64,000 nucleotides of DNA from the NCBI RefSeq assembly GCF_014805525.1, contig NZ_JACFSZ010000005.1, forward strand, positions 1-64,000, given 5' to 3'. Within the stretch, counting starts at the first letter, position 1, and each line of letters begins with the position of its first letter. Source of the stretch: Rhabdothermincola sediminis (GTDB taxonomy: Bacteria > Actinomycetota > Acidimicrobiia > Acidimicrobiales > Acidimicrobilacustridaceae). The notes beneath the pieces are model-generated. The model was not told the DNA's origin. It searched no databases and saw only the letters and a program-made list of their open reading frames with translations. The position numbers and the translations under genes were made by a program. Of this stretch, positions 4,023 to 25,690 are shown one piece after another.

Positions 4023-6758
4023 TCAGGAGGTCCAGGCCAGCTGCCGCCGGAGGCGCTTGTCGATGGCGACGATGACTGTGGTGGCCGCGGCGACGGCGAA
4101 GATCCGCAGCCAGACCCCCGCGCTGATGGGCGACGTCTGGAACACGGTGTTCATGATCGGCAGGTAGGTGATGGCGATCTGGCCCAGGGCCTGGACGGAA
4201 GCCCCTGCCAGGATCCAGCGGTTGGAGAACACCCCCACGTGCCACACCGAGTGGGTGAGCGACCGGCAGCTGAACAGGTAGAAGGCCTCGACGACCACGA
4301 AGAGGTTGAGGGCTGCGGTGCGGGCCTCCTCCGCGGTGGACCCCGTGGTCTGCTCGAACTCGAAGACCCACCAGGCTCCGCCGATGAGCACGGCCGAGAC
4401 CACCAGGATGCGGATCACCAGCGCCCCGGTGAGCAGCGGCCGCTGCGGGTCCCGGGGTGGTCGCTGCATGATGCCGGCTTCCTTGGGCTCGAAGGCCAGC
4501 ATCAACCCGAGCGCGATGGCGGTGGTCATGTTGATCCACAGGATCTGCACCGGCAGGATCGGCAGGGTGCTGCCGAGCACGATGGCGATGAGGATCACCA
4601 GGCCCTCACCCATGTTCGTTGGCAGCGTCCACACGATGAACTTCGTGAGGTTGTCGAACACCCCGCGGCCCTCCTCGACCGCCGCTTCGATGGTGGCGAA
4701 GTTGTCGTCGGTGAGGACCATGTCGGCCGCTTCCTTGGCTACCTCGGTCCCCCCGAGGCCCATGGCCACACCGATGTCGGCCTGTTGCAGTGCAGGTGCG
4801 TCGTTGACCCCGTCACCGGTCATGGCCACGATGTGATGGCGACCCTGGAGACCCTCCACCAGACGCAGCTTCTGCTCCGGTGACACCCGGGCGAACACGG
4901 ACGCCCGCTCGACGGCGGCGGGATACTCCTCGGGGGTGAGCGAGGCGAGCTCGGTGCCTGTGAGCACCCGACCGGGCTCGTCGCCGGTGAGGATGCCGAG
5001 CTGCTCGGCCACCGCGGTGGCGGTGGCGGCGTGATCGCCGGTGATCATCTTCACGTCGATGCCTGCGGTGTGGCACGACCGCACGGCGTCGATCGCTCCC
5101 GGTCGGGGTGGGTCGAGCATGGCGTGCAGGCCGGTGAACGTGAGCCTGCCGCGGATCGCCTCGACGTCGAAGTCGCCCTCGCTCGCCAGGTGACCGTGCG
5201 CGGTTCCCAGGACCCGCAGGCCGCGGTGGGCGAGATCCTCGGCGGCGGCGAGGATCTGCTCACGGTCGAGTGGCTCGGCTCGACCGGTGGGCCCCATCTG
5301 GTCGGCGCACAGATCGACGATCCGCTCGACAGCCCCCTTCACCAGCGCCACCGCACCGTCGCTGCCGGTGTGCAGGGTGGCCATGTACTTGCGCTCGGAG
5401 TTGAACGGGATCGACGCCACCCGGGGGAGCTCGTCCCGCAGGTTCTTCGGGTCGATCCCGGCCTTGGTGGCGGCGACGAGCATCGCCCCCTCGGTCGGGT
5501 CGCCGAGGACCGCCCAGGTACCGTCGGTGTGGTCGAGCCGGGCGTCGTTGCACAGGGCGCCGGCCACGAGCGTCCAGCGCAGCGCTTGGTCGGTGTCGAG
5601 GGCGGCCGGCGCCCCACCCGAGTCGAGGACGGCGCCGTCCGGCTGGTATCCGGCCCCGGTGACCTCGTAGTGATGGTGGGGAGTCCACAGGGCGCGCACC
5701 GTCATCTGGTTCTCGGTGAGGGTGCCGGTCTTGTCGGAGCACACAACGGTGGTGCTTCCGAGCGTCTCCACCGCGGGCATGCGCCGGATGACCGCCCGGC
5801 GCCGGGCCATGCGGTTCACCCCGATGGCCAGGGTGATGGTGACCGCGGCGGGGAGCCCTTCGGGGATCGCCCCCACCGCGAGCGCCACCGCGGCGGTGAA
5901 CATCTCGGTGGCACGCTCGCCGCGCAGGAGCCCCACCGCGAAGGTGACTGCTGCCAGGCCGAGGATCACCACCGTGAGCAGCTTGCTGAAGGCGGTGAGC
6001 TTGCGGGTCAGGGGAGTGGCCAGGGTCTCCGCGGTGCCGACCAGCCGGTGGATCTCGCCGAGCTCGGTCTCGGCGCCCGTCGCCACCACCACGCCCGTGC
6101 CGGTGCCGCTGGTGACCAGGGTGCCCGAATACAGCATGTTGCGCCGGTCCGCGACCGGGGTGGAGTCGGCCAGGACCACCTCGTCCTTCACCACCGGCAG
6201 CGACTCGCCGGTCAGCGCCGACTCGTCGACCTGCAGCTCGGCGACCTCGATCAGTCGCAGGTCGGCGGGCACCTTGTCGCCGGCCTCGATCAGCGCGATG
6301 TCACCGGGTACCAGCTCCTCGGACGGGATCGTGCGCACCTGGCCGTCACGGCGCACCCGGGCATGGGTGCGGACCATGGACCGGAGCGCGTCCAGCGCCG
6401 CCTCGGCCTTGGATTCCTGGATGAAGCCCACGACGGCGTTGACCAGCACGACGCCGAAGATCACGGCGGAGTCGACCAGCTCGCGCAGCAGGAGCGTCAC
6501 CGTGCCCGCGGCGAGGAGAACGTAGATCAACGGGTGGTTGAGCTGCCGGAGGAACCGGGCGAGCGGTCCCGCGGTGTCGACCACAGGGAGCTGGTTGGGT
6601 CCGTAGCGCTCGAGGCGGTGAGCGGCCTCGGATTCGCTCAGACCGTCGCGGCGGTCGGTCTCGAGCAGCAGCAGCACCTCGTGGGCGGCCAGCGCGTGAT
6701 GCGCGTTGGTCCCGGGAGCCGGAGCCGACCGGGTGGTGTCGGTAGATGGGGTGGCCAC
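4023..6758 (-). CDS. P2-type cation-transporting ATPase
   Basis: 911 residues from GTG at 6756-6758, which has an AAAGGGAG ribosome site 9 bases upstream; an in-frame start at 6863 is also open. N-terminal cation ATPase domain (LSESEAAHRLERYGPNQLP), actuator domain with DESALTGES, membrane motif IPEGLPAAVTITLAIG (PEGL, typical of P2A/P2-type pumps), phosphorylation site CSDKTGTLTENQMTV near residue 340, nucleotide-binding domain, hinge MTGDGVNDAPAL, and a C-terminal block of membrane helices. The family moves Ca2+, Mn2+ or Na+ (SERCA/PMR1-like or ENA-like); the ion cannot be read by eye. It is divergent from the universal stress gene, sharing a 200-base promoter region, which fits a stress-induced ion homeostasis set. 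Confidence 0.85.
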   Translation of the reverse strand: MATPSTDTTRSAPAPGTNAHHALAAHEVLLLLETDRRDGLSESEAAHRLERYGPNQLPVVDTAGPLARFLRQLNHPLIYVLLAAGTVTLLLRELVDSAVIFGVVLVNAVVGFIQESKAEAALDALRSMVRTHARVRRDGQVRTIPSEELVPGDIALIEAGDKVPADLRLIEVAELQVDESALTGESLPVVKDEVVLADSTPVADRRNMLYSGTLVTSGTGTGVVVATGAETELGEIHRLVGTAETLATPLTRKLTAFSKLLTVVILGLAAVTFAVGLLRGERATEMFTAAVALAVGAIPEGLPAAVTITLAIGVNRMARRRAVIRRMPAVETLGSTTVVCSDKTGTLTENQMTVRALWTPHHHYEVTGAGYQPDGAVLDSGGAPAALDTDQALRWTLVAGALCNDARLDHTDGTWAVLGDPTEGAMLVAATKAGIDPKNLRDELPRVASIPFNSERKYMATLHTGSDGAVALVKGAVERIVDLCADQMGPTGRAEPLDREQILAAAEDLAHRGLRVLGTAHGHLASEGDFDVEAIRGRLTFTGLHAMLDPPRPGAIDAVRSCHTAGIDVKMITGDHAATATAVAEQLGILTGDEPGRVLTGTELASLTPEEYPAAVERASVFARVSPEQKLRLVEGLQGRHHIVAMTGDGVNDAPALQQADIGVAMGLGGTEVAKEAADMVLTDDNFATIEAAVEEGRGVFDNLTKFIVWTLPTNMGEGLVILIAIVLGSTLPILPVQILWINMTTAIALGLMLAFEPKEAGIMQRPPRDPQRPLLTGALVIRILVVSAVLIGGAWWVFEFEQTTGSTAEEARTAALNLFVVVEAFYLFSCRSLTHSVWHVGVFSNRWILAGASVQALGQIAITYLPIMNTVFQTSPISAGVWLRIFAVAAATTVIVAIDKRLRRQLAWTS

Positions 6759-6959
6759 GATGGAGCGCTCCCTTTGACGAGATCCGCGACTGAAACGTTC
6801 GCCGACCAGGCTTCCCGGCGCGCCGCATGCCACGATAGGCGAGCGCTCGTGCAGCGGGAGCATCGGAGCCCGTCACCCGATGGGATCGATGGGATGCCGG
6901 CTCCCACCGAGGGTGTGATCGTTGCTCACTCGTCGCCACTCCAATCAAGGGTTCTGCTG

Positions 6960-7811
6960 ATGATGATCCTGGTCGCGGTCGATGGCTCGGAGGGGTCGGC
7001 GGCAGCGCTGCGATGGGCCCGTCGCTTCGCCGATCAGATGGGTGCGTCGATGGGTGCGATTCGGGCGTGGGAGTACCCGGCCTCGGCGGTGTTGCCCGGT
7101 GGGCCGTCCTTGCGGGGGCAGGACGAGGTCACCGCCGAGGTCACCTCGGAGCTCACCCGCTTCCTCCGTGACGAGCTGGCGGAGGGCGCCGAGGGCGTCG
7201 AGGCGATCGTCGAGCCGGGCGTCGCGGACGTCGCGGTGCTGCGGGCGGCCGAGCGCTGGCGAGCCGACCTGATCGTGGTAGGGCGGCGCGGGCTCGGAGC
7301 CGTCGCGAGCCGGCTGCTCGGCTCGGTGAGCCGGCGGGTCGTGGAAGGCGCCACGTGCCCCGTGGCTGTGATCCCCTCACCCCTCGGGGCCCACGAGGGG
7401 CCGGTGGTGGTCGGGGTGGACGGATCGGCGAGCGCGACCGCCGCCGTCGAATGGGCCACCGAGGTGGCGCTGGCGCTCTCCAGCCCGATGGTGGTGGTGC
7501 ACGCGGTGTCCTACGAGCTGCCGGGCTCCCCGTACTCGTTCGGCGACGCGATGGACCGCGCCGGCCAGGCCCTCGCCGAGGAGCAGTCACGCCCCCCGCG
7601 CGAGGCCGGTGTCGAGGTGCGCACGGTGGTCAGAGCCCTCGATCCGCGGGCGCTCATCCCCGAGACCGCGGACGAGCTCGATGCCCGACTGGTCGTGGTC
7701 GGGTCACGGGGCACGGGGCCGATCGCCTCGCTGTTGATGGGTAGCACCGCCAGCTACCTCGCGGAGCAATGCGACCATCCGACTGTCGTCGTTCCCCGAC
7801 CGGCGCCGTGA
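6960..7811 (+). CDS. Universal stress protein with two UspA domains
   Basis: 283 residues made of two tandem UspA domains (about 1-140 and 145-283). Each starts with the VAVDGS or VVVGVDGSASA strand-loop and each carries the ATP-binding G-2x-G-9x-G(S/T) motif: GRRGLGAVASRLLGS in the first and GSRGTGPIASLLMGS in the second. The protein therefore probably binds ATP like the mycobacterial tandem Usp proteins. ATGs at 6960 and 6963 can both start it; the frame is open far upstream, but that part is antisense to the ATPase gene. It is divergent from the cation ATPase. Cytoplasmic; stress-tolerance role inferred from the family. Confidence 0.88.
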   Translation: MMILVAVDGSEGSAAALRWARRFADQMGASMGAIRAWEYPASAVLPGGPSLRGQDEVTAEVTSELTRFLRDELAEGAEGVEAIVEPGVADVAVLRAAERWRADLIVVGRRGLGAVASRLLGSVSRRVVEGATCPVAVIPSPLGAHEGPVVVGVDGSASATAAVEWATEVALALSSPMVVVHAVSYELPGSPYSFGDAMDRAGQALAEEQSRPPREAGVEVRTVVRALDPRALIPETADELDARLVVVGSRGTGPIASLLMGSTASYLAEQCDHPTVVVPRPAP

Positions 7812-8273: not shown

Positions 8274-9659
8274 TCAGCGGGCGGGATGGCAGAGCTTCGC
8301 CTTGCGCCCGCTGCCGCACGGACAGGGATCGTTCCGCCCCGCCGCGGCCAGCACCGCTCGCACGTCGCTCGCTGGTCGCCCGGCGCGCAGCAGGCCCCCC
8401 ATGAGCCGCATCAGGCCGTCGATGTGCTCGAAGAAGGCCTTGTAGCCCGGGCAGAGGTAGTTGAGACCGGGTTCGCCGTCGGGGGTCAGGACGAAGCGGT
8501 TCTTCGGACACTCGCCGTGGCAGGCGAAGCGCACCTCGCAACGCCGGCAGTACGCGGGCAGGCTGGCGCGCTTGGCCTCACCGAACCGGCGTTGCCGGGG
8601 TGAGCCCGCGAGCTCGACCAGGTGGGTGGTGGTGATGTTGCCGAGCAGGTGGTCGGGTTCGACGAAGTGGTCACAGGAGTACACGTCCCCGTTGTGCTCG
8701 AGGGCCAGCGCGTCGCCACAGGTCTCCCGGAAGATGCACAGGGCAGGGGGGATGCCGAGCCAGGAGGCGAGGGCGGCGTCGAAGTGGCTGACGAAGACCT
8801 CCCCGACGTCGCCGGTGACCCACTCGTCGAACACCGTCATCAGGAACCGTCCCCAGGAGTGCGGATCGACCGACCGGTCGGTGACCGTGTCCCCTTCCTG
8901 GAAGCCTGTCGTGTTGTCACGCTCGACGATGGGGATGAACTGGACGTGCCGGAGCCCCAGCTCGTCGCGGAAGAACCGGTAGACCTCGATCGGATAGTCC
9001 TGATTGGCGGCGTGCACGGTGCACAGCACGTTGACCTCGACCCCGTGGGCGAGCAGCAGGTCCAGGCCTCGCAGCACCCTGTCGAACGTCGGAGCGCCGC
9101 GCTTGTCGAGCCGGTAGGCGTCGTGCAGCTCCCTCGGGCCGTCGATGCTGATGCCGACCAGGAACTGGTGGTCGGCGAGCAGCTCACACCACTCGTCGGT
9201 GAGCAGGGTGCCGTTCGTCTGGATGGTGTGGGTGATGCGTTGGCCCGGGCGCCGGTGTCGCTCGACCGCGTCGAGGGAGCGGCGGATGAACTCCACCCCC
9301 ATCAGCGTCGGCTCGCCGCCCTGCCAGGCGATCGTGACCTCGGGTGCCTGGTGGGCTTCGAGGAGTTGGCGGATGTAGGTGTCGAGCACCTCGTCGCTCA
9401 TGCGGAAGCGATCGCCGGGGTAGAGCGCTTCTTTGGCCAGGAAGTAGCAGTACCGGCAGTCGAGGTTGCAGATAGCGCCGGTGGGCTTCGCCAGCACGTG
9501 GAACGCCGCTGGGGCGGTCGCGGTCCGGTCGTCGCCGATGGTCTCCTCCACGGCCTCGACCGTGTGGGGCGAGCTGGCCTCCCGGTGCGGGTGGCCGGCG
9601 CCCCGCACGGGCACGCTGGCGCGGGTCTGGTGGCGGATGGCGACCTCCTTGCTGGCCAT
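8274..9659 (-). CDS. Radical SAM maturase of the anaerobic sulfatase-maturating (anSME) type, with SEC-C tail
   Basis: 461 residues from ATG 9657-9659 (MASKEVAIRHQ); an open 59-codon extension upstream has no similarity to the family. The radical SAM CxxxCxxC motif is CNLDCRYC near residues 64-71, followed by AWQGGEPTLMG, which helps bind SAM. A SPASM-type twitch region follows (CGDALALEHNGDVYSCDHFV, CRRCEVRFACHGECPKN) for two auxiliary 4Fe-4S clusters. The order matches anSME/SPASM enzymes, which oxidise an active-site Cys or Ser of sulfatases to formylglycine. The last 22 residues, GRNDPCPCGSGRKAKLCHP, are an SEC-C zinc motif. No sulfatase gene lies in the window. It is divergent from a Rieske oxygenase, with an operator-like element between them. 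Confidence 0.85.
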   Translation of the reverse strand: MASKEVAIRHQTRASVPVRGAGHPHREASSPHTVEAVEETIGDDRTATAPAAFHVLAKPTGAICNLDCRYCYFLAKEALYPGDRFRMSDEVLDTYIRQLLEAHQAPEVTIAWQGGEPTLMGVEFIRRSLDAVERHRRPGQRITHTIQTNGTLLTDEWCELLADHQFLVGISIDGPRELHDAYRLDKRGAPTFDRVLRGLDLLLAHGVEVNVLCTVHAANQDYPIEVYRFFRDELGLRHVQFIPIVERDNTTGFQEGDTVTDRSVDPHSWGRFLMTVFDEWVTGDVGEVFVSHFDAALASWLGIPPALCIFRETCGDALALEHNGDVYSCDHFVEPDHLLGNITTTHLVELAGSPRQRRFGEAKRASLPAYCRRCEVRFACHGECPKNRFVLTPDGEPGLNYLCPGYKAFFEHIDGLMRLMGGLLRAGRPASDVRAVLAAAGRNDPCPCGSGRKAKLCHPAR

Positions 9660-9738
9660 CGCAGTGGCTCGGATGCAGGCGCTGCGTGCAAGGTACCTGC
9701 TGGGCCGAACGGCAGGTGTGCTCCAGCCGAACGTGACG

Positions 9739-9759
9739 AGACAGATTCTGAGAGCGTCT
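9739..9759. promoter_or_regulatory. Operator-like 21-base element, copy 1
   Basis: The element begins AGACA and ends GCGTCT, with AGAC and GTCT separated by 13 bases. It lies between the divergent maturase (start 9659) and Rieske oxygenase (start 9864). Aligned by hand, it matches the reverse complement of copy 3 (12809-12829) at 17 of 21 positions and copy 2 (11716-11736) at 14 of 21. Recurrence at three promoters around a TetR gene suggests that repressor's binding site. Confidence 0.55.
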
Positions 9760-9863
9760 TGTGACCTCGGGGCGGCGGTGCTAGAACCTCGCGGGAGCGG
9801 TGTCCCACCGGCGATGACCACCACGGCGCCGGTCACCCGGAGGTCTTCTGCGATGAGGAGTCG

Positions 9864-11003
9864 ATGAGCGAGGAGTCCGACCCGCCGGCCGCGTCGCCCG
9901 CCGCGGAGGCGGTCGCTGCCGGCAGCCCTGGAGATCAGCTCTACGGGCGGATCAACGGCATCGCGCTCCCGGATCTCGGACGGGTCCGGGAGGCGCTGGC
10001 GGGGGGCGGTCCGCGCCGACGCCGCCGCATCGAGTCGTCACTGCCTCCCCGGTCTCACGTGTTGCCCGTCCCCAACGGCTGGTACGCCATCGTCGCCAGC
10101 GACGAGCTCGCCGCGGGCGATCTGGTGTCGATCCGGCTGGTGGATCGGGAGCTCGTGGTGGCGCGCGACGAGTTCGGGCGAGCGAGCGTGCTCGACGCTC
10201 ACTGCCCGCACATGGGCGCCCACCTCGGCGGCGGCAGGGTGATCGGGGAGCGGGTCAAGTGCCCGTACCACGGGTGGGAGTTCGGGGCTGACGGCCGCTG
10301 CGTGCGCATCCCCTACTCCGATTCCCGCATCCCCTCCCGAGCTCGGGTGCGCAGCTACCCGGTGCACGAGGCCGACGGCCTCGTCTACTTCTGGTACCAC
10401 GCCGCTGACGCGCCGCCGAACTTCGAGATCCCGGCCGTACCGGAGGCCTCCGACCCGTCGTGGAGCGAGGCGTACCCCTGGCGCTTCGAGCTGGTCGCCG
10501 CGCTCCAGGAGATGGCGGAGAACAACGTCGACTACGCGCACTTCCGCTACGTCCACGGCAAGGACGTGATCCCGCGCGACATCTCCGCGTTCCACTTCGA
10601 CGGGCCATGCTCCTGGGTCGAGGAGTCGCTCGGTGACGGCGTGTCGTTCACCCGGCACTCCTACGGGCCCGGGGTGGCGATCCTGCGGTTCCCGTCGCTG
10701 ATGACCATCGTGGCCGCGACCACCCCCATCGACCGGGGGAACTGCCGCCTGCTGTGGCACTTCTACTTCCCCCGCGAGCTCGAAGCAGCCGCGGAGGACC
10801 TGATCGTGCAGGTCACCGGTCCTTACGGCCTGCAGGCCGACGTGCCCATCTGGCGTGACCTCTCCTACCGCGAGCGCCCGGTCCTGGTGAAGGGAGACGG
10901 GCCGATCGCCGAGTTCCGGCGGTGGTATGCGCAGTTCTACGAGGGCAACGGATCACGAGATCGCCCTGGTCACCCCGACGGGCCCCCAGAGGAAAGCGCG
11001 TGA
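9864..11003 (+). CDS. Rieske non-heme iron oxygenase, terminal oxygenase subunit (KshA-like)
   Basis: 379 residues, ATG at 9864 preceded by GAGGAG. Rieske 2Fe-2S ligands are clear: CPHMGAHL (Cys about 114, His about 116) and, 16 residues on, CPYHGWEF (Cys about 133, His about 136). The catalytic domain has ALQEMAENNVDYAHFRYVHG, carrying the Asn/Asp-x2-His-x4-His pattern of the mononuclear iron site. The architecture resembles single-component-type terminal oxygenases such as 3-ketosteroid 9-alpha-hydroxylase or other sterol/aromatic hydroxylases; substrate unknown. No ferredoxin or reductase partner is nearby. The first 55 residues are low-complexity and Arg-rich. Neighbours (thioesterase, SDR, CoA ligase, crotonase) suggest a catabolic role. 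Confidence 0.85.
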   Translation: MSEESDPPAASPAAEAVAAGSPGDQLYGRINGIALPDLGRVREALAGGGPRRRRRIESSLPPRSHVLPVPNGWYAIVASDELAAGDLVSIRLVDRELVVARDEFGRASVLDAHCPHMGAHLGGGRVIGERVKCPYHGWEFGADGRCVRIPYSDSRIPSRARVRSYPVHEADGLVYFWYHAADAPPNFEIPAVPEASDPSWSEAYPWRFELVAALQEMAENNVDYAHFRYVHGKDVIPRDISAFHFDGPCSWVEESLGDGVSFTRHSYGPGVAILRFPSLMTIVAATTPIDRGNCRLLWHFYFPRELEAAAEDLIVQVTGPYGLQADVPIWRDLSYRERPVLVKGDGPIAEFRRWYAQFYEGNGSRDRPGHPDGPPEESA

Positions 11004-11034
11004 CGGCGAGCGAGGCCGACCGAGCCCACCAGCG

Positions 11035-11679
11035 CTAGGAGGAGGCGCCGGTGTCCCTGCGCGACCTTCGATCGGTCGCGAGCAGCGCTGGCACCAGCAT
11101 CAGCTCGAGGAGGCGCACCAGCTCCGCACGCTCGGGAACGATCTCCGGTGAGCGGGCCAGCCCCGCAGCCACGATCTGCAGCCACCAGGTGGCATCCTCG
11201 GGGCTGACCCCCTCCCGGAGGATGCCCTGCTCGGCGGCGCGCTCGAACACGGGATCCACGAGCGGGCGGAGGCCGGAGGTCAGCGCCTTCCCCCCGGCGC
11301 GGGCCAGCGCTTCGCTGGCCGACGGTGACAGCAGCGACCGGTGTACGGGGTCGGTGGCCACCTCGGCGATGGCCATCGCCAGACCCTCGCCCAGGAAGCG
11401 CTCCAGCGGTGCGTCGCGGCCCAGCTTGCGCACCACCTTCCTGCGGACCTGCAGGGAGGAGCGGGCCACGACCGCGGTCAGCAGCTCTTCTTTCGATCCG
11501 AAGTAGCGGTAGACGGAGGAGCGGTGAAGCCCCGCGACCTCGGCGACGGAATCGAGGCGCAGCGCCCTCACCCCGCGGTCGCGGACGATCGACTCCGCCG
11601 CATCGACCAGCCGGGCCCGCACCGCCTCGTACTCGGGGCCTCCGGGGCGCGCCTTCCAATCCGGGACCGCCTCGCTCAC
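11035..11679 (-). CDS. TetR/AcrR-family transcriptional regulator
   Basis: 214 residues if started at GTG 11677-11679 (VSEAVPDWKARPGG); the open frame continues to 11721 but would then overlap the operator-like element. The N-terminal helix-turn-helix is typical: RLVDAAESIVRDRGVRALRL, then SVAEVAGLHRSSVYRYFGSKEELL (residues about 40-65). The C-terminal half is the variable ligand-binding domain. It is divergent from an alpha/beta hydrolase, with an AGAC...GTCT element between the two starts, so it probably regulates itself and the hydrolase. Two further copies of the element lie at neighbouring promoters, which makes this protein the best candidate regulator of the local catabolic genes. Ligand unknown. 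Confidence 0.85.
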   Translation of the reverse strand: MSEAVPDWKARPGGPEYEAVRARLVDAAESIVRDRGVRALRLDSVAEVAGLHRSSVYRYFGSKEELLTAVVARSSLQVRRKVVRKLGRDAPLERFLGEGLAMAIAEVATDPVHRSLLSPSASEALARAGGKALTSGLRPLVDPVFERAAEQGILREGVSPEDATWWLQIVAAGLARSPEIVPERAELVRLLELMLVPALLATDRRSRRDTGASS

Positions 11680-11715
11680 CGCCCCATGCCTAGCCGCGGC
11701 CCGGAAGCGGACACA

Positions 11716-11736
11716 AGACACTCCTCGAGGGCGTCT
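11716..11736. promoter_or_regulatory. Operator-like 21-base element, copy 2
   Basis: AGACA at the left and GCGTCT at the right, with a CTCGAG core. It lies in the 101-base gap between the TetR gene (start 11679) and the alpha/beta hydrolase (start 11781), the usual place for an autoregulatory TetR operator. Ends are shared with the elements at 9739 and 12809. Confidence 0.6.
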
Positions 11737-11780
11737 CGTCCTGCTGAGGTGATGGTGAGCTGCGTTACCGTGCCTGGGCG

Positions 11781-12722
11781 ATGCCGATCGATCCCCGACT
11801 GTCGCTGCTGATCCGGATCGCCAAGCTCCGCCCTGACGATCGGTCGGTGCCGATGGCGGCCCGCCGGGAGCAGGCGGCGCGCCTGTCGTACCGGGGCGCG
11901 GGTCTGCTGATCGCGCCGGAGGCGAGTCCCGCCGCGATCGGGCACGTCGCGGTGCCCGTGGCCGGTGGGCGGATCAGGGTCCGGCTGTACCGCCCGCACG
12001 GCGCCGGACCGTTCCCGCTCTACGTGTTCCTCCACGGCGGTGGCTTCTGCATGGGGACCCTCGACGAGCGGGAGCAGCGCTGCCGGGCGGTGTCCGCGGG
12101 CGCCCGGTGTGTCGTGGCCTCCGTCGACTACCGCCTGGCCCCCGAGAACCAGTACCCGACCCCGCCCGAGGACTGCTACGCCGCGCTCGAGTGGCTCGTG
12201 GAGCATGCCGGCCGGCTCGACGTCGACCCCGGTCGGGTGGCGATCGGTGGCGAGTCCGCCGGAGCGAACCTGGCGGCGGTGGCCTGCCTGATGAGCCGCG
12301 ATCGAAACGGTCCCCGCCTCGTGCACCAATGGCTCGACGTACCGACCACCGACGCGACCTGCTCGCAATCGGGATTCCGGGAGGTGCCCGACGGCTACCT
12401 GCTCGACCGTGCCGCCATCGACGACTACCTCGAGCACTACCTGGCTCACCCGGCCCAGGCGAGCGAGCCCTATTGCTCCCCGCTGCTGGCCGACGACCAT
12501 CGGGGCCTGCCGCCGGCGTGGATCATGACCGCCGAGTACGACAAGCTGCGAGGGGACGGCGAGGCCTACGCCTCGGCGCTCGCCGCGGCCGGTGTGCCGG
12601 CGACGCACGTGCGCCTCGACGGCCACATCCACCCGTCGTTCGCCTTCACCCGCCTGCTCCCGTCGGCCCGGGCCTACCAGGATCAGGCCATCGCGGCTCT
12701 GCGCTCGGCGTTCGAGGGCTGA
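11781..12722 (+). CDS. Alpha/beta hydrolase, hormone-sensitive-lipase (HSL) family
   Basis: 313 residues. HSL-family signature: oxyanion-hole motif HGGGF near residue 84, nucleophile elbow GESAG (Ser about 158), the block VDYRLAPENQYPTPPEDCYA, catalytic Asp in TAEYDKLRGDGEAYA, and His in DGHIHPSF. No signal peptide, so it is cytoplasmic. It should hydrolyse a carboxylic ester, substrate unknown. ATG at 11781 with no clear ribosome site close upstream. Divergent from the TetR gene with the shared operator-like element 45 bases upstream; probably releases an acid that feeds the CoA-dependent genes downstream. Confidence 0.85.
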   Translation: MPIDPRLSLLIRIAKLRPDDRSVPMAARREQAARLSYRGAGLLIAPEASPAAIGHVAVPVAGGRIRVRLYRPHGAGPFPLYVFLHGGGFCMGTLDEREQRCRAVSAGARCVVASVDYRLAPENQYPTPPEDCYAALEWLVEHAGRLDVDPGRVAIGGESAGANLAAVACLMSRDRNGPRLVHQWLDVPTTDATCSQSGFREVPDGYLLDRAAIDDYLEHYLAHPAQASEPYCSPLLADDHRGLPPAWIMTAEYDKLRGDGEAYASALAAAGVPATHVRLDGHIHPSFAFTRLLPSARAYQDQAIAALRSAFEG

Positions 12723-12808
12723 CCCCACAGGCTGGCGAACCGGCTTCCCGCGGGATCGAACACCTGGCCCTCTCCGCAGGTCCCACTCACCCCGCGATCC
12801 GGTTGCCA

Positions 12809-12829
12809 GGACACTCTTAGAATATGTCT
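12809..12829. promoter_or_regulatory. Operator-like 21-base element, copy 3
   Basis: Begins GGACAC and ends ATGTCT on the + strand. Its reverse complement matches copy 1 at 17 of 21 positions. It lies 58 bases upstream of the thioesterase start and 87 bases behind the hydrolase stop, so it would control the thioesterase separately from the hydrolase. Confidence 0.55.
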
Positions 12830-12874
12830 TGCATCCGGCGCCGGACCGGTGCTAGCCCTGTCGGCATGTCTCGA

Positions 12875-12880
12875 AGGAGG
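12875..12880 (+). promoter_or_regulatory. Shine-Dalgarno site fixing the thioesterase start
   Basis: A full AGGAGG lies 6 bases before the in-frame GTG at 12887. It lies within the coding frame if the upstream ATG at 12866 were used, so the GTG is the preferred start. Confidence 0.6.
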
Positions 12881-12886
12881 GTGCCC

Positions 12887-13351
12887 GTGGTCGAGTCCCA
12901 ACCAGCCGCCATCGACGAGATCCCCCTGCACCGCATGCTGGCGCTCGACTATGAGCCCCCCACGCCGGGGGAGGGACGGGCGCAGGTCCGAATGCCCGTG
13001 AAGGCCGAGGCGCTCGGCTCCACCGGCAGCCTGCACGGTGGCGCGATCGCCACCATGGTGGACCTCGCCTGTGCGCTGGCTGCCGTGGGGAGCAGTGGGT
13101 TCGATCCTTCCCGGGAGTCGCTCGTCACCGTGGACATGCACATCCGCTACCTTGGTCGGGCCCGCACCGATACCGTGCTGGCCAGAGCCGAGGTCATCCG
13201 GAGAGGCAGCCAGCTGATCGTGGTCGGCTGTGAGGTGGTCGACGAGCAGGGTCACCTCGTCGCAGTGGCCGACTTCTCCATGATGATCGTTGCGCTGCGC
13301 ACGCCGCTGGTCGACAACGCGGTGCTCGTTGCCGGGGGGTCGGAGGTGTGA
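12887..13351 (+). CDS. PaaI-type hot-dog fold thioesterase
   Basis: 154 residues from GTG 12887, chosen for the AGGAGG 6 bases upstream. The hot-dog core has the PaaI-like motif GSLHGGAIATMVDLACALAA (HGG-helix with the acidic residue), then TVDMHIRYLGRARTDTVLA and a C-terminal strand set. The family hydrolyses acyl-CoA or aromatic-acyl-CoA thioesters, often releasing CoA from dead-end intermediates. Cytoplasmic, likely tetrameric as in the family. It is preceded by an operator-like element and followed by the convergent SDR gene 13 bases on. Confidence 0.8.
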   Translation: MVESQPAAIDEIPLHRMLALDYEPPTPGEGRAQVRMPVKAEALGSTGSLHGGAIATMVDLACALAAVGSSGFDPSRESLVTVDMHIRYLGRARTDTVLARAEVIRRGSQLIVVGCEVVDEQGHLVAVADFSMMIVALRTPLVDNAVLVAGGSEV

Positions 13352-21711: not shown

Positions 21712-23256
21712 TCAATCAGACGCTGCCGGCACCCACACCCCGTGGAAGCCGTAGGGCACCCGCACCGGGAGGTGCACCCGGGCCACGGGTCCGCTCGCCA
21801 GATCGAGCGCGTCGAGCACGACGAGGTCGCTGGCTCCCCGTTCCCTGTCCCACGCATAGCTGAGCAGCCAGCCCTCACCCTCGCCATCGCCGCTGGCGAC
21901 GACGAAACCTTCGTTCAGGCGGTAGCTGCCTCCGGGTGCGTAGCGGTCCAGCTCCCCGGTCGTCTCGTCACGATGAGCGAGGCCGGCGAACTCGATCGGG
22001 AAGTCCCCGTCGGCCTCGGTCATCAGGTACCAGCCGTGGCGGCTGCGGCGACCGGTGAAGCGCCGATCGACGGCCGGGAGGTCCATCGGGACGTCGCTCA
22101 AGGGCTCGTCCGACACGGTGAGCTGCGGGCCCGCTGTGTTCACCAGCCAACGGTGGGGTCGAGACGATCCCGTGTCACCACCCTCGCGGAAGATGTGTGG
22201 CAGGCGGCACGCGTCGATCACCACCTCGTCGCCCCTGCGGTACGCGTTGACCCCGTGGAAGATGTAGCAGGGCTCGATCTCGACCCAGCGGATGGCGGAG
22301 GTCGGTCCCTCGAGCGGCATGATGCCGAGGCGGGCCCCGTAGCTCTCGTCCCAGCGGAACGGGAATGCCGTGCTCTCACCGCTGACCAGCTTCATCGCCA
22401 GATCGAGGTCGAAGACCACGGGTAGCTCCCAGAACACCGCATCGCGCTCGGTGATGGCGAAGTCGTGGATCATGGTGGGGCCGGCCACCTCGATGTCACC
22501 CGTGTAGACGAGCTCACCGTCGGCCGAGGCCACGTGATACGTGAGGTAGGGCGGGACGAACCCGTACCCGAAGAAGTGCATCCGGCCGGTGACGGGATCG
22601 ATCTTGGGATGCGCGGTCATGGAGGTCGTGAGACGGCCGGCGTAGTCGTAGGGGCCATTCGTCGACAGGTCGGTCGTCGAGAGCTCGTAGGGGAGCCCGA
22701 CCTCTCCCGAGCTGAGGAGCCGACCGGCGTGGTGGAAGACGCTCACGTTGCTCTGGTTGCGCGCCCCGCCGGGAGCCGAGCTCCCGAGGAGGCCGGTGCC
22801 TTCCCGCAGCAGTGGGGTGTCGACGTAGCGGTTTCGGTACCACTGCGCCCTGCCAGCCGCCAGTCGGACACCGTGCACCATCCCGTCGCCGAGGAACCAG
22901 TGAGGTGACGGTCCGCTCGCCGGGTTGGAGCCGTTGCGGACGTACAGGCCGTCGAGCTCGGGGGGCAGAGCTCCAGAGACCTCGAGATCGAACGCCTCCA
23001 CCTGATCGTGGACAGGAGCGAACCCGCCTTGCATCCAGTAGGGGAGTGCCGGGTCGTAGGGCAGGGTCGGGGGTGGGGACGTGCTCGGCGAGATGGCCGG
23101 GTCGGTCGATCGCGGCGAAGAGGAGCAGGCGGCCAGGAGCGACGGTGCGCCACCGAGGGCGAGGGCGGCAGCGGCGACCCGCTCGATGAACTGGCGGCGG
23201 TCCCACTGGACGTGGGCGACGAGGGGATGGGCCGGGGGGACACGTGCTGGCGTCAC
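21712..23256 (-). CDS. Exported carotenoid cleavage oxygenase (RPE65 family)
   Basis: 514 residues from GTG 23254-23256; an 18-codon longer start is possible. Residues about 19-45 read WDRRQFIERVAAAALALGG and then LLAACSSS: a twin-arginine-type signal (RRQFI) ending in a lipobox, so the enzyme is probably Tat-exported and lipid-anchored. The beta-propeller core follows, with the four iron-ligand histidines recognisable in TAHPKID, MIHDFAI, IFHGVNAY and GFHGVWVP. The family cleaves carotenoids, stilbenes or lignin-type alkenes with Fe(II) and O2. No carotenoid biosynthesis genes lie nearby, which fits use of an external substrate. Confidence 0.85.
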   Translation of the reverse strand: MTPARVPPAHPLVAHVQWDRRQFIERVAAAALALGGAPSLLAACSSSPRSTDPAISPSTSPPPTLPYDPALPYWMQGGFAPVHDQVEAFDLEVSGALPPELDGLYVRNGSNPASGPSPHWFLGDGMVHGVRLAAGRAQWYRNRYVDTPLLREGTGLLGSSAPGGARNQSNVSVFHHAGRLLSSGEVGLPYELSTTDLSTNGPYDYAGRLTTSMTAHPKIDPVTGRMHFFGYGFVPPYLTYHVASADGELVYTGDIEVAGPTMIHDFAITERDAVFWELPVVFDLDLAMKLVSGESTAFPFRWDESYGARLGIMPLEGPTSAIRWVEIEPCYIFHGVNAYRRGDEVVIDACRLPHIFREGGDTGSSRPHRWLVNTAGPQLTVSDEPLSDVPMDLPAVDRRFTGRRSRHGWYLMTEADGDFPIEFAGLAHRDETTGELDRYAPGGSYRLNEGFVVASGDGEGEGWLLSYAWDRERGASDLVVLDALDLASGPVARVHLPVRVPYGFHGVWVPAASD

Positions 23257-23380
23257 AGGCTGACCTCGCTGAACGTTGTAAAGCCGCCACGCTACACGCT
23301 CGCGGGCCACGGATCCGGCCCACCGCTCCCACCGGAGCGATCCTGGACCGGCGTCAGCGACCGTTATCGTCTACGAGGCC

Positions 23381-25690
23381 ATGCCACCTGACGCGGCCGA
23401 CACCGTCCACCAGGAGGGACCCGGGCTGACCCCGTCGGGGCGGGACGGGTTCCTCGACCTGATCCGGGCGGTGGCGACGCTGCGGGTGATCGTGTGGCAC
23501 GCGTTCGGTGCGGCCGTGATCACCTACGTCATCGCGGCGATGCCAGCCATGTTCTTCGTCACCGGCTCGCTCTTCGCGCGGTCGGCGGACCGGCACGGAG
23601 CCCGAACCACGATCGCGGACCGGCTCCGGCGGATCGCGCCGTCGCTTTGGGTGTTCGCGGCAGTCGCGTGGACGGCGATGTGGGTGGGTGCCAGCCGGAG
23701 TGGCACAGGCCTCGACTGGCGACACGTGGTGCTGTGGATCGTCCCCATCTCGGACCCCGCAGGCTCGCCGTGGGAAGGCGGCTGGCTGGCGACCCCGCTG
23801 TGGTACCTGCGGACCCTCCTGTGGATCTTCCTGCTCGCGCCGCTCGCCATCAGGGCGGTGCGTCGCTGGCCGGTGCGAACCTTCGCCGTGTCCGGGCTCG
23901 CGGTCGTGGCGCTCGACCTCGCCGATCGGGCCGGCTGGCTCCGGCCCGCGTTCGCCGACCGTCTCGTCTGGCAGCTCGGCGACCTCGCGCTCTACGGCAC
24001 CTTCTTCCTCTTCGGCGTCCGCGTCGCGGACGGTTCGTTCGACCGGGTCCGCCCACGCAACTGGGCGCTGGTCGCGTCGGTGGCCACGATTGGCGCCGTC
24101 GCCTGGTGGCTGACCCAGCCCGTCCCCTCAGGCGTGGTCAACAACTCGCACCCGATGCACCTGCTCGTCGGTACGGTCTGGCTCGCCCTGGCCCTCGCGT
24201 CCGTCCCCGCTCTGCGCCGGCTGGCGGACCACCACCTGGCCCGACCGGTCGTGCGGTTCCTCGGGCAGCGGTCCCTCACCGTCTACCTCTGGCACACGTC
24301 GGCGATCGTCGTAGCTCTGTGGATCCTCGACCACCAGGGCCGGTCCCCGCGCCTGGGGTGGGGGTTGAGCTACGTCGTGCTCATCGCCGGCGGTGTGGTG
24401 GTGGCATGCGTGCTGTTCGGGTGGATCGAAGACCTCGGTGCGAAACGACCTCCCAAGCTCTGGCCGCTGCCGACCGCCCCTGCCCGGCGCCGACATGCTC
24501 CGGTGGCTGTGGCGTCGGCGCTGCTGGTCACCGTCCTCACGGTCTGGGTGGTGATGCCCCGGGCTGGAGACCCGACCTCGGAGGAGCGATCGTTCCGTCC
24601 CGGGGTGCCCTCCCAGGCGCCTCCCAAGCCGACGTTCGACCCCGTCGACGCCCGCTACGAGATGGTGGCGGGCGAGAGCGGCACCGCTCGTGCCCCCGTG
24701 GCGCTCGGCCAGGCGCTCGACGAGGATGGCGTGCACCAGCTGGTGGCCGTCTGGGCCCTCGAGCACGGCGTTCCCGGTGTGGCCGTGGGGTTGGCCTTCC
24801 CGGATGGGCCTGCATGGGTCACGGCCCTCGGGGTCGACGAAGAGGGCCGTGCTCGTGACGCGGCTGATCGCATCGACGTGATGTCGATCACCAAGCTGTT
24901 CACCGCGAACCTCGTGTTCCGCGCGGCGGAAGCAGGCCTGCTGGAGCTCGACGAGCCGCTGCCCGGGCTCGGCGCCTACCCGGCGCTGCCACGCCCGATC
25001 ACGGTCCGGGAGCTGCTGACCCATCGATCCGGGTTGCTGAACTACTGGGAATCGGAGCAGTACGTCGCCGATCCCGAGTCGCTGACCTCCCCGCTCGACG
25101 CGCTCGCCATCGCCGCGGCGTCGCCCCTGCAGTTCGAACCGGGCTCCGAGAGCCGCTACTCGAGCACGAACTACATCGTCCTCGGAGTGCTCCTGGAGCA
25201 GGTCACCGGCCAGCCGTTCGACGTGCTGGTGGACGAGCAGCTGCTCCGGCCCTTGGGCCTCGAGTCGGCCGCGATCCTGCCGCCCCAGGCCGGGTTGCCC
25301 CGCACCGGTGCTGCTGGGATCGTCACGGATCTCGCCGACCTCGGCCGGGGGGTGCTCGCGCTGCTCCGGGACCACGTCGGCATCAGTGATGCGTCCTACC
25401 GGGCGATGACCGACATCGACCGCGACTCCGCCATGGGCGCAGGGGTGAACGGGTTCTGCCCGTGCCGTACGGATCCAGACGGTGGGGCCCACTGGTTCGG
25501 CATGGGGTACGCCGGTGGGCACACGCTGGCTCTCTACCTGCCGACCTCCGACGTGGTGGTCACCGTCGACGTGACCGGCAGCTTCTGGGAGGACGACCGC
25601 TTCGCGCAGGTGATGGAACTGGTGGAGCGGATCGACGCCCACCTCTGGCAGCATTCGCAAGAGTTCGACGGCGAGCACGCCCCGCTCTGA
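23381..25690 (+). CDS. Fusion: membrane acyltransferase-3 domain plus class C beta-lactamase-like domain
   Basis: 769 residues, ATG 23381. Residues about 15-390 are an acyltransferase-3/OatA-like membrane domain (about 10 hydrophobic segments; FLDLIRAVATLRVIVWHAFG with the conserved R and H, and FLGQRSLTVYLWHTSAIVV). Residues about 440-769 are a serine beta-lactamase/DD-peptidase-like domain: SITK (Ser about 502), YSSTN (Y-x-N motif region), and GYAGGHT near the C-terminus in place of KTG. Topology should place the lactamase domain outside. A plausible role is acylation/deacylation of a wall polymer or lipid; not demonstrated. Starts 70 bases after a TATCGT box and is followed 1 base later by alkB. 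Confidence 0.82.
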   Translation: MPPDAADTVHQEGPGLTPSGRDGFLDLIRAVATLRVIVWHAFGAAVITYVIAAMPAMFFVTGSLFARSADRHGARTTIADRLRRIAPSLWVFAAVAWTAMWVGASRSGTGLDWRHVVLWIVPISDPAGSPWEGGWLATPLWYLRTLLWIFLLAPLAIRAVRRWPVRTFAVSGLAVVALDLADRAGWLRPAFADRLVWQLGDLALYGTFFLFGVRVADGSFDRVRPRNWALVASVATIGAVAWWLTQPVPSGVVNNSHPMHLLVGTVWLALALASVPALRRLADHHLARPVVRFLGQRSLTVYLWHTSAIVVALWILDHQGRSPRLGWGLSYVVLIAGGVVVACVLFGWIEDLGAKRPPKLWPLPTAPARRRHAPVAVASALLVTVLTVWVVMPRAGDPTSEERSFRPGVPSQAPPKPTFDPVDARYEMVAGESGTARAPVALGQALDEDGVHQLVAVWALEHGVPGVAVGLAFPDGPAWVTALGVDEEGRARDAADRIDVMSITKLFTANLVFRAAEAGLLELDEPLPGLGAYPALPRPITVRELLTHRSGLLNYWESEQYVADPESLTSPLDALAIAAASPLQFEPGSESRYSSTNYIVLGVLLEQVTGQPFDVLVDEQLLRPLGLESAAILPPQAGLPRTGAAGIVTDLADLGRGVLALLRDHVGISDASYRAMTDIDRDSAMGAGVNGFCPCRTDPDGGAHWFGMGYAGGHTLALYLPTSDVVVTVDVTGSFWEDDRFAQVMELVERIDAHLWQHSQEFDGEHAPL

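Follow-up and report, generated by a model that had tools for sequence, protein, structure and literature searches.

A palindromic element at three predicted promoters around a TetR-family gene in Rhabdothermincola sediminis

Genes and elements of the locus

The stretch of DNA analysed here, referred to as the window, comprises 64,000 nucleotides of Rhabdothermincola sediminis and harbours a gene for a TetR-family regulator that lies among genes for a Rieske oxygenase, an esterase, a thioesterase and a radical SAM/SPASM protein (Table 1). The Rieske gene and tetR are convergent, and genes for an SDR, an acyl-CoA ligase and an enoyl-CoA hydratase are also present in the neighbourhood. The regulator carries an N-terminal helix-turn-helix domain matched by TetR_N (PF00440) with an E-value of 5e-11, above the gathering cut-off, and its AlphaFold model predicts an all-helical TetR fold of ten helices (mean pLDDT 83.5), with the C-terminal ligand-binding domain usual for the family, whose top structure matches are TetR-family proteins. 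The radical SAM protein bears a C-terminal SEC-C motif; its gene has no sulfatase among its annotated neighbours, and five Sulfatase (PF00884) matches are found elsewhere in the genome. Further along the window, an RPE65-type carotenoid cleavage oxygenase is encoded at 21712-23310, followed at 23381-25690 by a single frame of 769 aa that fuses an Acyl_transf_3 membrane acyltransferase and a Beta-lactamase-type domain.

Table 1. Positions of genes, putative operators and predicted promoters in the window.
Feature	Position	Strand	Description
Radical SAM/SPASM protein, anaerobic sulfatase maturase family	8274..9659	-	TIGR03942 above cut-off; divergent from Rieske
Operator 1 (putative)	9737..9761	+	25 bp, CGAGACAGATTCTGAGAGCGTCTTG, directed at Rieske gene
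Predicted Rieske promoter	9759..9787	+	-35 TTGTGA 9759-9764, 17-base spacer, -10 TAGAAC 9782-9787
Rieske oxygenase, KshA-like	9864..11003	+	379 aa; Pfam Rieske + KshA_C
TetR-family regulator	11035..11679	-	214 aa, GTG start; Pfam TetR_N
Predicted tetR promoter	11687..11716	-	-35 TTGTGT, 18-base spacer, -10 TAGGCA; start site predicted
Operator 2 (putative)	11714..11738	-	25 bp, CGAGACGCCCTCGAGGAGTGTCTTG, directed at tetR; GC-richest copy
Hormone-sensitive-lipase-type alpha/beta hydrolase (esterase)	11781..12722	+	Pfam Abhydrolase_3; divergent from tetR
Operator 3 (putative)	12807..12831	+	25 bp, CAGGACACTCTTAGAATATGTCTTG, directed at thioesterase gene
Predicted thioesterase promoter	12829..12858	+	-35 TTGCAT, 18-base spacer, -10 TAGCCC; start site predicted
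Hotdog-fold (PaaI-like) thioesterase	12866..13351	+	Pfam 4HBT, TIGR00369

A preliminary description of this DNA had reported three 21-base elements at 9739-9759, 11716-11736 and 12809-12829, and they are located exactly there. The recounted identities agree as well, with 17/21 between copy 1 and the reverse complement of copy 3 and 14/21 between copies 1 and 2 in the better orientation, to which 14/21 for copies 2 and 3 can be added. At its full length the element comprises 25 bases and forms a near-palindrome with the consensus CAAGACA-N11-TGTCTTG, in which core and arms represent two nested repeats. That nothing similar occurs elsewhere in the window also held, as every match lies inside three intergenic gaps spanning 3.1 kb. 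The motif RGAC-N13-GTCT alone is not significant, with 5 window matches on both strands versus 6.4 expected from shuffles; the weight thus rests on context and conservation, the bare motif being no rarer than chance.

In the whole 3.29-Mb genome, the 21-mer pattern derived from the three copies is found without mismatch only at the three places in the window, a result that shows the absence of further copies and, given the origin of the pattern, not an independent significance. The looser RGACRN11YGTCY is useless alone (25 places in the genome versus 34 for the reversed control), and the five further genome matches to GACR-N11-YGTCTTG include none (0/5) with a TAG at promoter distance. Conversely, GTCTTG-N(16-21)-TAG occurs at 19 genome places, and only the three in the window coincide with a match to either of these two operator patterns.

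Promoter geometry at the three elements

When oriented toward one neighbour gene, each copy terminates in GTCTTG and is followed by TAG 20 or 21 bases on. Within the window, GTCTTG-N(17-20)-CTAG is found 3 times, always at the elements, against 0.07 expected and with 0/100 shuffles reaching 3, figures that are descriptive since the arrangement was noticed on the copies themselves. If TTG is taken as the start of a -35 box and TAG as that of a -10 box, the spacers measure 17, 18 and 18 bases, which is normal spacing for sigma-70 promoters, and the -35 of the predicted Rieske promoter overlaps operator 1. A scan for consensus promoters returned none, and because the three predicted promoters are non-consensus their assignment rests on position and conservation. 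The tetR and thioesterase transcripts are probably leaderless, the predicted starts falling at or beside the start codon; for the thioesterase, the start is taken as the ATG at 12866, just past the predicted promoter.

This geometry supports the assignment of element 1 to the Rieske oxygenase, element 2 to tetR and element 3 to the thioesterase. The opposite flanks of elements 1 and 2, where the radical SAM maturase and the esterase respectively lie, show no -35/-10 geometry of this kind. The preliminary description had proposed a catabolic TetR regulon in which maturase, Rieske oxygenase, esterase and thioesterase are the targets. The operator part of that proposal is well supported by the relatives described below, and the list of four genes needs correction: by geometry the Rieske oxygenase and the thioesterase stay, tetR itself is added, and the maturase and the esterase lack such support. 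Control of these two genes is nonetheless possible, and a bound repressor might still affect both.

Sites in close and distant relatives

Close orthologues of the window TetR are few, namely those in G417/L086 (68-69% identical), G278/L081 (65%), G418/L089 (59%), G008/L061 (58%) and G379/L082 (48-49%), so that conservation is judged on about six genomes, within a set of comparison assemblies that are mostly fragmented and incomplete. The preliminary description had called for a comparison of orthologous regions, and a matrix built from the three window copies only does find intergenic sites beside TetR orthologues (L086, L270, L082). It detects them, too, at the Rieske gene of L227 (67% identical) and ahead of the TetR gene of L091 (33% identical). 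At these five loci the scores range from 21 to 29 and exceed 100/100 shuffles per locus, compared with a maximum of 16.0 over 37 control sequences, some of them overlapping, taken around Rieske relatives that lack this TetR. The matrix scan of the relatives is an independent test of the elements. L268 and L269 also pass, but as loci first picked up through a pattern search they do not count as independent, whereas L081 and L061 fail, the former having a longer spacer and the latter no site by tetR. Among the Rieske relatives of family f20 without this TetR, which were used as negative control, the operator is absent.

No variation is seen in GAC and GTCTTG over 12 sites, some of which were found by a pattern that included GTCTTG, and the core tends to TTTCCAGGA. 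A TA is present 20 or 21 bases past GTCTTG at 10/12 sites and at the variant in G278, versus a background of 9/164 GTCTTG. An inverted repeat at the regulator's own promoter is likewise kept in the orthologues, with the exception of G008, which has no site beside tetR.

The genes that accompany the site differ among genomes. In G379, a Rieske gene (62% identical) and, after it, tetR form one operon on the same strand; the site, CACGACAAATTCAACAAATGTCTTG, precedes the start of the Rieske gene by ~57 bases. The site of G417 has an Amidohydro_2-SDR pair on one side and, on the other, a gene called VOC-like by its sequence, with no Pfam match, which is followed by tetR; that of G418 precedes Amidohydro_2-SDR-P450, with tetR past the far end on the opposite strand. 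The variant of G278 (L081, 5738-5762) is found between Amidohydro_2-P450-tetR and an SDR gene and has 12 spacer bases instead of 11; it retains the promoter distance, here to TACAAA. In G002, a genome of the window's family, one site precedes the 67%-identical Rieske gene and another an ADC-like/SDR pair, each with a TAGAAC spaced as in the window; two more sites by Amidohydro_2 genes bring the good sites to four. No close orthologue of the window TetR was found in this 95%-complete assembly. In G008 both sites are on the same contig, one immediately ahead of a P450 gene, and tetR lies on a different contig.

Clustering of some of these genes is also seen where no operator is found. In G334 (L228, G334:C104), homologues of the Rieske, thioesterase-like and maturase genes (58%, 54% and 73% identical, respectively) are grouped at 4668-7250, with no operator there. 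Because the three genes cluster in G334 too, it is plausible that the maturase is functionally tied to the module, independently of this TetR.

More distant TetRs, ~31-37% identical, have AGACR-N11-YGTCT just upstream in L060, L084, L085 and L091, and share with the window protein the recognition-helix pattern R(S/A)(S/T)xYR. In L060, L084 and L085 the regulator faces an Amidohydro_2 gene; in L085, an ADC-like and then an SDR gene come after it. L091, a proteobacterial contig, carries at 4319-4374 two tandem near-perfect copies, CAAGACAAAATACAAATATGTCTTG and CAAGACAAATTTATAATCTGTCTTG, immediately ahead of its TetR gene (33% identical); sulfotransferase genes lie downstream. The window-only matrix gives a clear result for L091; it does not separate L060, L084 and L085 from shuffles, and these three cases therefore rest on position and palindrome. 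Judging from these sequences, the palindrome seems to travel with the regulator and not with any single set of genes.

A putative autoregulated switch and its alternatives

Collectively, the sites observed in the window, their absence from the rest of the genome and their co-occurrence in relatives with one TetR branch and with catabolic genes make it highly likely that the TetR repressor encoded between the three elements uses them as operators and controls its own gene; it would block promoters and be released by a ligand. In particular, one or two repressor dimers would bind the 25-bp imperfect palindrome, whose promoter-side half-site would cover the -35 box of the Rieske, tetR and thioesterase promoters. 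The bound repressor would then block RNA polymerase, including at its own gene, and release by a substrate or pathway intermediate would switch the genes on. Against this reading stand the four sites of G002, where no close TetR orthologue was found, the lack of a site beside tetR in G008, the longer spacer in G278 and the non-consensus character of the predicted promoters. Joint induction by one ligand, as the preliminary description had it, is something we infer from this arrangement. The locus very probably encodes a small self-regulated degradation pathway for some compound, that is, an ordinary kind of system, not described before.

It could also be argued that the elements are operators of a different regulator, a TetR paralogue or a member of another family, and that the adjacent tetR is merely one of its targets. 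This would account for G002, where sites are present and no close orthologue of the window TetR is found, and for G008, where sites and tetR lie on separate contigs. We regard it as improbable, since in the window, G379, G417 and G278 the sites adjoin tetR or fall within its operon, in more distant members they precede tetR itself, and they are missing from the Rieske relatives that lack this TetR. Still less probable is that the shared sequence marks the promoter class of a particular sigma factor, with a likeness confined to -35 and -10. Indeed, GTCTTG-N(17-20)-CTAG is common to all three promoters, but the invariant GAC half lies beyond the -35, where sigma has no need of it, L060, L084 and L085 keep the palindrome while TTG becomes TCA, and the sites keep to a single TetR branch, with no more than three of them in the genome. 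A chance resemblance of short motifs, to which the chance-level frequency of bare RGAC-N13-GTCT might point, has a negligible probability, being contradicted by the promoter context, the lack of other genome copies and the sites in relatives predicted by the matrix.

An autoregulated TetR switch at such a locus recalls known systems. KstR is the TetR repressor of the actinobacterial cholesterol catabolism regulon, which includes a KshA-like Rieske oxygenase, and the likeness lies in the type of repressor, the catabolic regulon and this oxygenase. The KstR operator, TnnAACnnGTTnnA, is unlike that of the window, and KstR itself is excluded as an identity of the window TetR, which scores 30.7 bits with NF033703 against a cut-off of 280. 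Of the described systems found, Rv3160c-Rv3161c of Mycobacterium tuberculosis comes nearest, with a like mode of action: there, a TetR represses the adjacent gene for a Rieske-type oxygenase via a promoter-covering palindrome, Rieske gene and tetR forming one operon and the palindrome consisting of nested inner and outer inverted repeats (PMC7810876). By comparison with that description, tetR adjoins the Rieske gene in the window as well and shares one operon with it in G379, and nested repeats are present here too, whereas the putative operators of the window stand at three separate places and its Rieske gene and tetR converge. No description of this operator sequence, nor of a TetR regulon of this kind from Acidimicrobiia, came up in a literature search.

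Among solved structures, SmeT (2w53) is the best sequence-profile match of the window TetR, and the folds nearest to its model include those of acyl-CoA-binding FadR proteins. With identities of 16-26% and TM-scores of ~0.4-0.6, the likeness to SmeT and FadR-type repressors says TetR fold, not ligand. The structure search returned generic TetR folds only, with acyl-CoAs, aromatics and drugs among their known ligands, and does not name the ligand. Because of the SDR, acyl-CoA ligase and enoyl-CoA hydratase neighbours and the FadR-type fold neighbours, a CoA thioester or another hydrophobic compound may be considered, which is no more than a guess.

Exact putative operators and predicted promoters make this a regulon open to testing, in a bacterial group whose members are largely uncultured. 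Because relatives carry the same switch at oxygenase modules, it can reveal which genes act together, and the repressor's ligand could show what these modules degrade. On a broader scale, the chances are roughly even that an undescribed TetR branch of Acidimicrobiia and relatives keeps one operator locked to the -35 while the enzymes under its control, namely Rieske or P450 oxygenases, Amidohydro_2, ADC-like and SDR enzymes and thioesterase, are swapped between lineages. Regulator and switch would in that case be the signature of an entire class of degradation modules.

At several loci of genus g12 (L053, L054, L043 and others), ~30%-identical TetRs are preceded by AGACA-N13-TGTCT, a palindrome of 23 bases that possibly reflects spacer drift within the same operator family.
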